This document shows positions 27,010 through 45,099 of a DNA stretch of 63,861 nt, piece by piece. How positions within the stretch are numbered: position 1 is the first letter of the stretch; each line of letters begins with the position of its first letter. The position numbers and the translations under genes are program-made. Under the pieces are notes generated by a model, which was not told the DNA's origin, searched no databases, and saw nothing but the letters and a program-made list of their open reading frames with translations. Source of the DNA: Mycobacteriales bacterium (GTDB taxonomy: Bacteria; Actinomycetota; Actinomycetes; JAFAQI01); contig DASZRO010000043.1 of assembly GCA_035550055.1 (NCBI GenBank), positions 1 to 63,861 on the forward strand. Direction: 5' to 3'.

Positions 27010-27324
27010 TTGGCACTCCCGCCGTTGACTCCGCAGCAGCGGGCCGCCGCGCTCGAGAAGGCGGCTGCTGCTCGTCGGACGCGGGCCGACCTCAGAGAGC
27101 GTTTGAAGCAGTCGACGGTGTCGCTCGCGGAGGTGTTCGCCGAAGGCGAGCGCGACGAGGCGATCGGGAAGATGCGCGTCAGCGCGGTCCTCGAGTCGAT
27201 GCCCGGCGTCGGCAAGATCCGAGCCCAGCGGATCATGGAACGGCTCTCGATCTCCGCGAGCCGGCGGGTGCGGGGGCTGGGGGCGCACCAGCGGACGGCC
27301 CTCGTACGTGAGTTCTCCGACTAG
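27010..27324 (+). CDS. mihF: Actinobacterial integration host factor (mIHF)
   Basis: 104 residues. A nucleoid-associated protein, unrelated in fold to HU/IHF, that bends DNA. The N-terminus begins [17 protein letters not shown] and the C-terminal helix-two-turn-helix contains [19 protein letters not shown], as in Streptomyces sIHF. TTG 27010 is chosen because it gives that N-terminus and GAGG is 9 nt upstream; longer reading to 26989 is unlikely. The gene overlaps gmk by 17 nt, which couples their expression. Confidence 0.9.
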
Positions 27325-27874
27325 CCGCCTGACCGTCCTGTCGGGGCCCGCCGGGGTCGGCAAGAGCTCGGTCGGCGCTGCCTTGCGGGAGCTCGCGCCG
27401 CAGGTCTGGCACTCGGTCAGCGCAACGACCCGGCGGCAACGGCCCGGCGAGGTCGACGGGGAGTCGTACTTCTTCCTCAGCGCCGACGAGTTCGAGGAGA
27501 TGTCCAAGAACGGCGAGCTGCTCGAGCAGGCCGTTTACGCCGGCAACCGCTACGGCACGCCGCGCGGACCGGTCCGGGAACGGCTGGCCGCCGGGATCCC
27601 GGTCCTGCTCGAGATCGAGCTGCAGGGCGCACGTCAGATCCGGGCGATCGATCCCGATGCGCTGCTGGTCTTCCTCGCGCCGCCGTCGTGGGAGGAGCTC
27701 GAGCGGCGGCTGCGCGGACGGGGCACGGAGGACGCCGAGGTGATCGAGCGCCGGCTGGCCCAGGCCAAGGTCGAGCTCGCCGCCGAAGGCGAGTTCGACG
27801 AGGTCATCGTCAACACCTCGATCCCCGAAGCCGCCGCAGCACTGGCCGCCCTCATCTCGGCCAACCCCCGGTGA
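27308..27874 (+). CDS. gmk: Guanylate kinase
   Basis: 188 residues. Phosphorylates GMP to GDP. The P-loop is GPAGVGKSS (13-21), GMP-binding residues are in [21 protein letters not shown], and the lid segment is [13 protein letters not shown] 27308 lies inside mihF. The stop codon at 27872-27874 is part of the left arm of a palindromic repeat, so the repeat contributes the last bases of the coding sequence. Confidence 0.95.
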
Positions 27875-27931
27875 TCTTGACGTTTTCGGCCTGATGGCGC
27901 CCCCATGAGGCCGAAAACGTCAAGATCACCG
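27869..27931. repeat. Palindromic repeat, copy 1 (24-bp perfect arms)
   Basis: Left arm 27869-27892 and right arm 27908-27931 are exact reverse complements over 24 bp, with core TGATCTTGACGTTTTCGG on the left and a 15-nt loop. The right flank GAGGGAAGG is shared with copy 3. The gmk stop TGA lies within the left arm. The rpoZ -10 candidate begins 20 nt after it. Two other copies are at 43171 and 44195. The stem could form a strong transcript hairpin, but no T-run follows. Confidence 0.9.
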
Positions 27932-27950
27932 AGGGAAGGCGGGGCTCCTG

Positions 27951-28268: not shown

Positions 28269-29480
28269 ATGTCGACCGAGCGCAGGCGCGTCGTCCTCGG
28301 CGTCTGCGGAGGCATTGCTGCCTACAAGGCATGTGAGCTGCTGCGTCGCTTCACCGAGTCCGGGTACGACGTGCGCGTCGTGCCCACGGCCGCCGCGCTG
28401 AAGTTCGTCGGCGAGACCACCTGGGCGGCGCTGTCCGGCAACCCGATCTCGACCGAGGTGTGGACCGAGGCGCATCGCGTCCCGCACGTGACGCTCGGCC
28501 GGCAGGCCGACCTGGTCGTCGTCGCGCCCGCGACGGCGGACTTTCTCGCCCGGCTCGTCATCGGTCGCTCCGACGACCTGCTCACCGCCACGCTGCTGAC
28601 GGCTCGCTGCCCGGTCATCGTTGCCCCGGCGATGCACACCGAGATGTGGCAGCACCCGGCGACCGAAGCGAACGTCGCGACGTTGCGGGCCCGCGGCGTG
28701 ATCGTGCTCGACCCCGCAGTCGGCCGGCTCACCGGCGCCGACACCGGCATCGGGCGACTGCCGGACCCGGAGGAGATCTTCCGCGTCGCGCGGACCGTGC
28801 TCGAGCGTGGCGTGGCCTCGCTCGCGCATGACCTGACGTCCCGGCACGTGCTGGTGACCGCGGGCGGGACCCGGGAGCCACTCGACCCGGTGCGCTTCCT
28901 CGGCAACCGGTCGAGTGGCCGTCAGGGGTACGCGATCGCCCGGGCCGCGCTTGCCCGCGGCGCCGAGGTCACGCTGGTCACCGCCAACTCGTCGCTGGCC
29001 GATCCGGCAGGTGCGAAGGTGGTGCGCGTCGGCACCGCCGAGGACATGCGGATCGCGGTGGAGGAGCTTGCCGGTAGCGCAGACGCCATCGTGATGGCGG
29101 CGGCTGTCGCCGACTTCCGGCCCGCGGTCCGAGCCGGCAGCAAGATCAAGAAGGGCGCGGTCGACCCCGACCCGATCGAGCTCGTCCGCAACGTCGACAT
29201 CCTCGCCGACATCTCGCGGACCCGCCGGCGCAGCGGTCAAATCATCGTCGGGTTCGCCGCCGAGACCGACAACGTGATCGCCAACGGCCGGGCAAAGCTC
29301 GAGGCGAAGGGCTGCGATCTGATCGTCGTCAACGAGGTCGGCGAGCACCGCACGTTCGAGTCCGAGCACAACGCGGCAACGATCCTCGGCGCCGACGGCA
29401 GCGAGACTGTGGTCGAACACGGCAGCAAGGAAGCTCTCGGCCACGCGATCTTGGACCTCGTCGCCGCACGCCTCGGCTGA
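28269..29480 (+). CDS. coaBC: Bifunctional phosphopantothenoylcysteine decarboxylase/synthetase
   Basis: 403 residues. Two steps of coenzyme A synthesis. The N-terminal CoaC flavoprotein has catalytic His in RVPHVTLGRQAD and the PAMHTEMW motif (PAMNxxMW family; Asn is replaced by His here). The C-terminal CoaB domain has VTAGGTREPLDPVRF, GNRSSG and the AAAVADF loop with Lys residues in KIKKG. ATG 28269 is 6 nt after rpoZ. Confidence 0.95.
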   Translation: MSTERRRVVLGVCGGIAAYKACELLRRFTESGYDVRVVPTAAALKFVGETTWAALSGNPISTEVWTEAHRVPHVTLGRQADLVVVAPATADFLARLVIGRSDDLLTATLLTARCPVIVAPAMHTEMWQHPATEANVATLRARGVIVLDPAVGRLTGADTGIGRLPDPEEIFRVARTVLERGVASLAHDLTSRHVLVTAGGTREPLDPVRFLGNRSSGRQGYAIARAALARGAEVTLVTANSSLADPAGAKVVRVGTAEDMRIAVEELAGSADAIVMAAAVADFRPAVRAGSKIKKGAVDPDPIELVRNVDILADISRTRRRSGQIIVGFAAETDNVIANGRAKLEAKGCDLIVVNEVGEHRTFESEHNAATILGADGSETVVEHGSKEALGHAILDLVAARLG

Positions 29481-42291: not shown

Positions 42292-43164
42292 GTGCTCTCG
42301 CTCGTGCTTCCCAAGGGTTCGCTGGAGAAGGCGACCCTCGAACTGTTCGACGCTGCCGACCTGGCCGTGCGGCGCGGGTCCGACCGCGACTACCGCGCGG
42401 GCATCTCCGATCCCCGGGTCGACCGCGTGATGTTCCTGCGGCCGCAGGAGATCCCGCGCTACGTCGAGGAAGGGCTCTTCGACCTCGGCATCACCGGTCG
42501 TGACTGGATCACCGAGACCTCGGCGAAGGTCGAATCGGTGTGTGAGCTCGAGTACTCGAAGGCGACCTCGAACCCGGTCCGGATCATCCTTGCCGTCCCT
42601 GCCGACCACCCGGCGCAGACGGGGGCGCAGCTTCCCGACGGCGTACGGGTCTCGACCGAATACCCCGAGCTCACCCGGCGGTTCTTCGCCGATGCCGGCG
42701 TCAACGCGGTCATCGTGCCGTCGTACGGCGCCACTGAGGCCAAGGTGCCCGACATCGTCGACGCGATCGTCGACGTGACCGAGACCGGCTCGTCGCTTCG
42801 CGCGCACGGGCTGCGGATCCTCGAGACGCTGCTGACCTCCCGTACCGAGCTCATCGCGAACCCGCAGGCCTACGCCGATCCGGAGAAGCGCGCCGCGATG
42901 GAGGACATCGCGCTGCTGCTGCAGGGGGCGATCCGGGCCCGGGGGACGGTCTACCTGATGCTGAACGTCTCCGAAGGCGACCTCAGCGCCGTGCTGGCCC
43001 AGCTGCCGTCGATGAGCTCACCGACGCAGACGCAGCTCGCCGGGGGTGGGTACGCGCTCGGGACCGTCGTACCCAAACAGGGCGTCAACGAGCTGATCCC
43101 TGCGCTGAAGGCAGCCGGAGCGCGGGACATCCTCGAACTCCCCATCGCCAAAATCGTCGAATAA
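42292..43164 (+). CDS. hisG: ATP phosphoribosyltransferase, long form
   Basis: 290 residues, the first step of histidine synthesis. N-terminal opening LSLVLPKGSLEKATLELFDAADLAV, the PRPP loop with VDVTETGSSLRAHGL, and a C-terminal ACT-like domain (about 215-290) make it the histidine-feedback form that needs no HisZ. GAAAGG is 8 nt before GTG 42292. In many actinobacteria hisE precedes hisG here; no such gene fits in the 54-nt gap after ribH. Confidence 0.95.
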   Translation: MLSLVLPKGSLEKATLELFDAADLAVRRGSDRDYRAGISDPRVDRVMFLRPQEIPRYVEEGLFDLGITGRDWITETSAKVESVCELEYSKATSNPVRIILAVPADHPAQTGAQLPDGVRVSTEYPELTRRFFADAGVNAVIVPSYGATEAKVPDIVDAIVDVTETGSSLRAHGLRILETLLTSRTELIANPQAYADPEKRAAMEDIALLLQGAIRARGTVYLMLNVSEGDLSAVLAQLPSMSSPTQTQLAGGGYALGTVVPKQGVNELIPALKAAGARDILELPIAKIVE

Positions 43165-43170
43165 CACCCC

Positions 43171-43233
43171 CGGTGATCTTGACGTTTTCGGCCTGAAAGC
43201 CGCCTCATCGGGCCGAAAACGTCAAGATCACCG
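43171..43233. repeat. Palindromic repeat, copy 2 (23-bp perfect arms)
   Basis: Arms 43171-43193 and 43211-43233 are exact reverse complements over 23 bp, with a 17-nt loop. It starts 6 nt after the hisG stop. A further CCC/GGG pair flanks the arms with one mismatch. The core sequence is identical to copy 1, while the loop differs. Together with copy 3 it brackets the nuclease-like gene. Confidence 0.9.
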
Positions 43234-43297
43234 CGGGTATGGCCAGGCCTGTGGATGGCCGGCGCCGCCGCGCGGCCGAACTGTCGATGCTGTCGCG

Positions 43298-44182
43298 GTG
43301 CCTCCGACGCCGTACGTGCCATTGGCCTTGACCCACGCGCCCTTCACCTCCGCCGAAGCTGCCGTCGCCGGGGTCAGCGACTCCGCACTGCGGCGAGGGC
43401 CGTGGCGACATGTGTTCCGGGAGGTATGGGTTCACGAGGACGTCCCCGACAACCGGGAGACCCGCGTCGAGGCGGTCCGGCTCGTCCTCGGCAAGCACGC
43501 GTTCGTGTGCGGCCTGACTGCGGCGTGGATGTACGGGATCGACGCCCGTGACCGGCGCTGGCAGCTGGTCTGGGTCGGCTGCCCGACCGGCAGCCGGCTG
43601 CGGACCCGTCGGGGATGCTTCACTCGCGAGATCACGGTGACGGCTGCTGATCTGGACCTGTTCAACGGCGTACTGCTGACCACGCCGGTCCGCACGGTGT
43701 ACGACTGCGCCCGCTGGCTGTCCCCGGTCGAGGCGCTCGTCGTCGCCGACGCGCTGGTCGGCCAGGGCCTGCTCACCGTGGAGGAGCTCAGCACTTACCG
43801 CAACTGTCATCGCGGCATCCGCAACGTGACTCGGGTCGACCAGCTGATCCGGACGATCGAACCGCTGTCCGAGTCTGCGATGGAAACCCGGGTGCGGCAC
43901 CTGCTCACGTCCGCGGGACTGCCGCGACCGACCGCGCAGCACGTCGTACGCGACGTTGCCGGCAGCTTCGTCGCCCGCCTCGACCTCGCCTACGTCGGGA
44001 TCAAGCTGGCGATCGAGTACGACGGCGCACTGCACTGGGAGCAGCGACGCGAAGACGATCGCCGGCGGGATCGGCTTCGTGCGCTGGGCTGGACCGTCAT
44101 CGTGGTGAGCGCGGAGGATTACTTCAACGCGCCTGGGCTGATCGTCGACCAGGTACGCCGGGAAATGCGCCGCGCCGCCTGA
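43298..44182 (+). CDS. AbiEi-like/DUF559 nuclease-type protein
   Basis: 294 residues. The N-terminal 100 residues resemble AbiEi-type winged-helix proteins (APFTSAEAAVAGVSDSALRRG, then WRHVFREVWV). The C-terminal third, from ESAMETRVRHLLTSAGLP, is DUF559/Vsr-like with a PD-(D/E)xK arrangement: Glu in AMETRV, Asp in RLDLAYV, Glu in LAIEYDGALHW and later basic residues (RRDRLRALGW). Proteins of this architecture are common in actinobacterial accessory DNA; their role is not established. GTG 43298 or 43316 could be the start, without a ribosome site. It interrupts the hisG-infC interval and is flanked on both sides by palindromic repeats. Confidence 0.8.
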   Translation: MPPTPYVPLALTHAPFTSAEAAVAGVSDSALRRGPWRHVFREVWVHEDVPDNRETRVEAVRLVLGKHAFVCGLTAAWMYGIDARDRRWQLVWVGCPTGSRLRTRRGCFTREITVTAADLDLFNGVLLTTPVRTVYDCARWLSPVEALVVADALVGQGLLTVEELSTYRNCHRGIRNVTRVDQLIRTIEPLSESAMETRVRHLLTSAGLPRPTAQHVVRDVAGSFVARLDLAYVGIKLAIEYDGALHWEQRREDDRRRDRLRALGWTVIVVSAEDYFNAPGLIVDQVRREMRRAA

Positions 44183-44194
44183 GCGCCCCCACCC

Positions 44195-44257
44195 CGCTGA
44201 TCTTGACGTTTTCGGCCCCATGAGGTGGTCAACAGGCCGAAAGCGTCAAGATCACCG
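44195..44257. repeat. Palindromic repeat, copy 3 (imperfect arms)
   Basis: Arms 44195-44217 and 44235-44257 pair over 23 positions with one mismatch (C197/C255) and one G-U pair; the loop is 17 nt. It begins 12 nt after the stop of the nuclease-like gene. The segment CCCCATGAGG and the right flank GAGGGAAA match copy 1. The same arm order is found in all three copies. Confidence 0.9.
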
Positions 44258-44418
44258 AGGGAAAGGCCTGGTACGCTGTTTGCTGCGACTAGTGGGTGGA
44301 AATCGCCTACTTGCAAGTGGAGCCTCAACTCCCACCCGTTCGGTCCGCGGATTGACGGGTCACCGGTCGCCGCACCGCCGGGGAGCAGATTTCGGTGGTG
44401 GGGTCCGCCGTTGTCGTC

Positions 44419-44493: not shown

Positions 44494-45099
44494 ATCAGCG
44501 TCGAACCCCGTATCAACGACCGGATTCGCGTCCCCGAGGTGCGCCTGGTCGGTCCGAACGGTGAGCAGGTCGGCATCGTCGCCATCGGCGACGCGCTGCG
44601 ACTGGCCCAGGAGGCAGATCTCGACCTGGTCGAGGTAGCCGCCGAGGCCCGTCCTCCGGTCTGCAAGCTCATGGACTACGGCAAGTGGAAGTACGAGAAC
44701 GCGCAGAAAGCGCGGGAGGCGCGACGCAACCAGTCGCACACGATCATCAAGGAGATGAAGCTCCGGCCGAAGATCGATCCGCACGACTACGAGACCAAGA
44801 AGGGTCACGTGGTGCGGTTCCTCAAGGCAGGAGACAAGGTCAAGATCACGATCATGTTCCGCGGCCGCGAGCAGTCCCGCCCCGAACTGGGCTTCCGGCT
44901 GCTGCAGCGACTTGCCGCGGACGTCGAAGAGCTCGGGTACGTCGAGGCGTCGCCCAAGCAGGACGGCCGCAACATGATCATGGTGATGGCCCCGCACCGA
45001 AAGCACCAGGCGCAGCCGGCACGAGCACGGCGGGCGGACAGCGAGGCGGCCAGCAACGCCGACGCTGGGCCCGAGGCTCCCGAGCAAGCTGCGGTCTAG
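44494..45099 (+). CDS. infC: Translation initiation factor IF-3
   Basis: About 201 residues. The N-domain [16 protein letters not shown], the linker of basic residues (KAREARRNQ) and the C-domain [18 protein letters not shown] with FRGREQ are complete. The conserved opening is preserved only if translation begins at ATC 44494, with GGAGGT just upstream; the first standard start in frame, GTG 44539, removes 15 conserved residues. A rare start codon is the known autoregulatory feature of infC (AUU in E. coli). The C-terminal tail (about 30 residues) is Ala/Glu-rich. Confidence 0.93.

Follow-up and report, generated by a model that had tools for sequence, protein, structure and literature searches.

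Across actinobacteria, many genes of the DUF559 family are bordered by matching palindromes, an association that is widespread and apparently undescribed. We propose that such a gene and its private family of ~55-80 bp hairpins probably constitute a REP-RAYT-like system, albeit one built on a PD-(D/E)XK nuclease. The evidence suggests that the nuclease maintains or spreads its palindromes; their mobilisation is what we infer, cutting and dissemination being the less certain step. No paper linking DUF559 to palindromes, inverted repeats, REP, REPIN or RAYT was found in the open-licence literature.

The window analysed here is a stretch of 63,861 nucleotides (contig DASZRO010000043.1, assembly GCA_035550055.1) from a Mycobacteriales bacterium whose genome is a 3.5-Mb draft of 122 contigs. 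The initial annotation had described a DUF559 gene bracketed by two palindromes between hisG and infC, and the coordinates were confirmed. The relevant features are as follows.

27308 to 27874, plus strand: gmk (guanylate kinase), with its stop codon inside palindrome copy 1.
27864 to 27936, no strand: palindrome copy 1, a solo ~72-bp repeat with a 57-bp core at 27872-27928.
42292 to 43164, plus strand: hisG, left neighbour of the DUF559 gene.
43166 to 43238, no strand: palindrome copy 2 (57-bp core 43174-43230), with the hisG stop on one side and the DUF559 gene on the other.
43298 to 44182, plus strand: DUF559 gene, 294 aa, with a predicted N-terminal wHTH/AbiEi-like part and a predicted C-terminal PD-(D/E)XK (Vsr-like) nuclease.
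43487 to 43849, plus strand: AbiEi_1-like segment, codons 64-184 (the PADLOC AbiEi match spans residues 16-176).
43865 to 44179, plus strand: predicted nuclease domain, codons 190-294, with conserved S193, E196, R200, D229, E240 and D242.
44190 to 44262, no strand: palindrome copy 3 (57-bp core 44198-44254), directly 3' of the DUF559 stop and ahead of the infC leader.
44539 to 45099, plus strand: infC, right neighbour, the ORF being taken from its first common start codon.

The 57-bp core of these palindromes, TGATCTTGACG...CGTCAAGATCA, is near-perfectly palindromic. Its arm matches six times in the window and never in shuffled windows, and the three copies fold as single strands with z-scores of -9.9, -7.4 and -13.8 relative to shuffles. 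The two flanking hairpins do match as initially described, but their 'direct order' carries little meaning because the elements are nearly symmetric. In copy 1, the first three bases of the core are the TGA stop codon of gmk (27872). This solo copy also lies upstream of a coaBC-like gene (28269-29480). About 19 places in the genome carry the arm, part copies included, mostly at the ends of unrelated genes, and contig C8 holds one further copy with different inner arms. A scan of the locus for intrinsic terminators was negative, with no T-run signature, and an Rfam search returned only sub-threshold matches, mostly to microRNA models.

The one further genome of the genus in our set, a Frankiaceae MAG (G001, contig JAICMG010000005.1), has the same arrangement. 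There hisG, the DUF559 gene and infC follow in the same order, the hisG-infC interval measures 1377 bp as in the window, the DUF559 protein is 72% identical and the two palindromes lie just where they do in the window. The outer ends of the palindromes are identical between the two genomes, and the inner arms have been rewritten while remaining self-complementary. In more distant relatives the hisG-infC gaps of 332 bp and 589 bp are without the unit. The palindrome-gene-palindrome unit was thus, judging from these comparisons, gained or lost above the genus level and then inherited together with its palindromes, and the DUF559 gene appears to be mostly vertically inherited. The idea of a cargo unit consequently holds insofar as the interval is empty in distant relatives, but a recent insertion does not fit, since the genus mate already has the gene and both palindromes in the same places. 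A strict palindrome pattern gave no matches in other genome contigs or in viral contigs because the inner arms vary by species; a looser pattern of the end sequences recovers the family in related genomes. One of these (G005) holds at least 18 palindromes with the end sequence of the window family. In the same genome, the DUF559 homologue at G005:C36:25101-25954 (L197) is split into two overlapping frames by a frameshift or an assembly error.

The protein itself scores above the Pfam cut-offs for both DUF559 (28.5 bits, cut-off 20.6) and AbiEi_1 (23.3 bits, cut-off 22.2) and matches PADLOC AbiEi models (E 3.9e-10), which bears out its first description as AbiEi/DUF559-type. Across 73 homologues S193, E196 and R200 are invariant (E196 100%), and D229 (96%), E240 (89%) and D242 are likewise conserved within 88-96%; this residue pattern is predicted to be that of an active PD-(D/E)XK nuclease. 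The AlphaFold2 model has a mean pLDDT of 61.5 overall, the C-terminal part being good and the N-terminal half poorly predicted. A Foldseek search with this model gave no match at E <= 0.001, and the fold assignment rests on VIA-align together with the sequence motifs. VIA-align of residues ~191-294 places the domain next to I-Bth0305I (Z 11.2), NGO0050 (Z 10.9) and Vsr (Z 9.4), so that the Vsr-like nuclease fold proposed initially is upheld by both the structural scores and the conserved catalytic residues.

Such a fold, together with the PADLOC AbiEi match, would also suit a defence or selfish nuclease cutting invading or palindrome-free DNA, with the host palindromes acting as recognition, decoy or protection sites. 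We find this reading very unlikely, and with it the defence role first suggested for the gene. Neither a methylase nor an AbiEii toxin gene is present among the annotated neighbours, the gene shows vertical synteny within the genus, and homologues are nearly absent from plasmids and phages, with seven homologue-bearing records in the plasmid collection and one in the phage collection. The annotated neighbours of the Tsukamurella homologues are unrelated genes, with no AbiEii toxin among them.

To place the window in a broader context, we compared 75 actinobacterial loci carrying a DUF559 homologue (27-100% identity), using the neighbouring gene ends of the same loci as controls. Hairpins occur at 49 of the 145 DUF559 gene ends and at 11 of the 473 neighbouring gene ends, an odds ratio of 21 with a p-value of 4.6e-24 that is nominal because the loci are not all phylogenetically independent. 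Their density is equally uneven, with 50 hairpins in the 36 kb around DUF559 gene ends versus 14 in the remaining 402 kb. At the level of loci, 37 of the 75 have a hairpin near the gene and 38 have none at the threshold used, these thresholds overlooking degenerate copies and most of the genomes being drafts; three of the six homologues in the window's own genome are among those lacking a hairpin at this threshold. The hairpins have a median length of 62 bp. Those upstream stop 11-148 nt short of the start codon, mostly 43-118, and downstream copies begin anywhere from 26 nt before to 56 nt after the stop codon. Seven further homologues came from the plasmid collection after the pattern had emerged, several of which are clearly chromosomal to judge from the genes around them, and five of these seven are flanked by hairpins: on both sides in Tsukamurella tyrosinosolvens (EL451_RS09310 and EL451_RS18665) and Arthrobacter ERGS1:01 (AL755_RS00945), and on one side at two loci of Arthrobacter StoSoilB13.

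The bracketing of DUF559 genes by palindromes is no coincidence, a conclusion that we hold with near certainty. It had been anticipated that repeats at most unrelated gene ends and no link to DUF559 genes would speak for chance; repeats are indeed present at unrelated gene ends, but DUF559 genes are strongly associated with them, and other DUF559 genes are often flanked as well, each by a palindrome of its own sequence. If the palindromes were generic host terminators or repeats lying beside the gene by chance, solo copies at gene 3' ends would be accounted for, yet this explanation is extremely improbable given the gene-specific sequences, the strong enrichment over neighbouring genes and the missing T-run signature.

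The hairpin structure of the palindromes is conserved. Comparison of 40 copies of 57 bp, drawn from three genomes, shows almost no variation at positions 1-11 and 17-19 (GGC). Elsewhere in the stem both sides change jointly: double-change cells number 153, shuffles reaching 86 at most, and 95% of cells are paired, a share that never exceeds 86% in shuffles. The stems therefore covary in a manner indicating that pairing itself is conserved, and not the sequence alone.

Solo copies cluster by the stop codons of genes. Of 28 copies from the genus (two genomes), 17 are no more than 10 nt away from a gene's stop codon and 21 no more than 30 nt away; for random intergenic placements the corresponding shares are 8.4% (p 5e-12) and 25% (p 4e-8). 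In several copies the palindrome's own TGA serves as the stop codon of the gene. The positions common to both species of the genus are those flanking the DUF559 gene and about two others, a lower bound since these are draft genomes. Differences are also seen between two species that are ~92% identical (G024 and G046): behind one stop codon G024 carries a palindrome that G046 lacks, no clear target duplication being visible at this cleanest empty site, and a second site differs likewise. About four palindromes spaced ~75-115 bp apart form a local array in G024 (L257, G024:C1:614589-614915) where G046 has one copy. Empty sites and local arrays of this kind show, as far as genome comparison reaches, a turnover in copy number in which gain and loss are indistinguishable. 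At the G024-occupied, G046-empty site, a third genome (G078, L298, orthologous to L274) carries an apparently different and unrelated insert after the same stop codon.

These placements bear on the view that the protein is an AbiEi-type DNA-binding regulator autoregulating through its flanking palindromes, the solo copies being regulon operators or transcript-end elements. AbiEi antitoxins bind inverted repeats in their own promoter, and the AbiEi-like segment and the palindromes upstream of the gene would be in keeping with such a role. We nevertheless consider it unlikely: conservation of the nuclease active site is high, many flanking copies adjoin the stop codon of the gene, solo copies are located at 3' ends instead of promoters, and copies turn over between close species.

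The link between a given gene and its palindrome is specific. Paralogues within one genome carry different palindromes, three of those in the window's genome beginning CGGTGATCTTGACG, ACGCCGAGCCCAACG and GCGAGGCCAACCG, and this genome has two palindrome families with two genes, the second family comprising five copies. In 12 of 13 two-sided loci the upstream hairpin best matches its own downstream partner, the exception being a small GC hairpin. A search with a concatenate of 33 palindromes found cognate palindromes in all 19 genomes where they were expected and in none of six control genomes; among the matches listed, most of the 19 genomes have several copies beyond those of the gene itself and one has only the gene's own. 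Two Tsukamurella palindromes recur at 20 and 11 places and one Arthrobacter palindrome at 37 (strands counted separately), and among 72,556 records they occur only in their own organisms. The overall correlation between protein similarity and palindrome similarity falls within the permutation range because the sequences diverge too fast to be tracked beyond close homologues. Two paralogues of another genome (G051, L214 and L222), 81% identical, share the outer ends of their palindromes (CCCCGTTGATCATGGAGAA) and differ in the inner arms. The same pattern distinguishes the window's genome from its genus mate.

Specificity of this kind weighs on a further explanation, in which MITE-like palindromes are moved by some other transposase and at times form a composite unit with the DUF559 gene as passenger. 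One genus has the unit between hisG and infC whereas other relatives lack it, which would agree with this explanation, as would the solo DUF559 genes within suf and pnt operons of Sphingomonas. Yet a shared external transposase explains the data poorly because each gene has its own palindrome, even among the paralogues of one genome; moreover, the cleanest empty site is without target duplication and a Y1 transposase was not found in the genome. We judge this scenario quite unlikely. The role in repeat mobility that had been raised for the nuclease fares better, as its homologues carry their own matching, multi-copy palindromes, from which movement may be inferred.

Under our preferred reading of a nuclease with a private hairpin family, the usual layout comprises a palindrome ~60 bp ahead of the gene, a palindrome at or overlapping its stop codon, or both, plus dispersed solo copies. 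The AbiEi-like N-terminal part would recognise the invariant arm tips (TGATCTTGACG in the window family), and the Vsr/I-Bth0305I-like nuclease would cut the hairpin or cruciform form or a target. Host repair might then copy the palindrome to new sites or expand arrays. Such a system would work as RAYTs do with REPs, albeit by a different enzyme chemistry.

REPtrons, in which REPs or REPINs are paired with a RAYT (TnpA-REP), share with the DUF559 loci a chromosomal gene flanked by its own dispersed palindrome family, species-specific repeats and copies mostly at gene 3' ends. They differ in their enzyme, RAYT being an HUH/Y1 transposase and the window enzyme a DUF559 protein of predicted PD-(D/E)XK type, and in their repeats, which are 20-40 bp long and GTAG-tagged whereas the DUF559-linked ones are single ~55-80 bp hairpins (57-bp cores in the window) without GTAG. 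A RAYT identity was rejected: a PF01797 profile search found no HUH/Y1 transposase in the window's genome, the same search being positive in five control genomes. Dispersed hairpins also occur as CGTC-tagged REPs, reported without a dedicated transposase and characterised by a CGTC end tag and 8-9 bp stems (PMC3733652). CGTC/GACG is present in the arms of the window family, but these arms are ~20-31 bp long and not every DUF559-linked family has CGTC. Vsr, a mismatch-repair endonuclease that nicks at T:G mismatches, and the Vsr-like homing endonuclease I-Bth0305I share the nuclease fold and acidic catalytic residues, whereas the window protein has in addition an AbiEi-like N-terminal part and a link to palindromes and is free-standing, not intronic. 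Finally, the AbiEi antitoxin of AbiE toxin-antitoxin systems shares the AbiEi-like segment by HMM, but in the window protein this segment is fused to a nuclease, and its neighbours, hisG and infC, include no AbiEii toxin gene.

REP-type palindromes are among the commonest bacterial repeats and, to our knowledge, RAYT transposases are the only enzyme class linked to them. If our reading is true, DUF559 genes would have a function, a genome-specific repeat class in actinobacteria would be explained and many natural nuclease-site pairs would be supplied. The DUF559 family, so far of 'unknown function', thereby gains a concrete candidate substrate, a cognate palindrome that can be read from the genome for each gene.

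A broader generalisation is possible, and we advance it only tentatively: entire classes of bacterial palindromic repeats, in both actinobacteria and alphaproteobacteria, may have DUF559/Vsr-like nucleases as their dedicated enzymes, independently of RAYT transposases. The actinobacterial class would consist of AbiEi-DUF559 fusions with ~60-bp palindromes, and the alphaproteobacterial class of short YcjD-type DUF559 proteins with short CCCTCTCC-type REPs, some of them CGTC-tagged; we know of no enzyme for these short REPs. In alphaproteobacterial replicons, short YcjD-type DUF559 genes (loci L315-L331) do lie among CCCTCTCC-type REPs, which are found at 16 of 28 gene ends as compared with 15 of 61 control ends (p 0.004), a modest enrichment that is a lead and not a result, given the abundance of REPs and the small sample. 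On pSymB of Sinorhizobium meliloti Ak57 (L318:2332-2961), the gene lies between two REPs that stand in inverted order, one tagged CGTC and the other TGTC. In Sphingomonas parapaucimobilis, the suf operon (as sufB-DUF559-sufC) and the operon for NAD(P) transhydrogenase each contain a solo DUF559 gene (L326:2486-2896 and L329:2483-2878).
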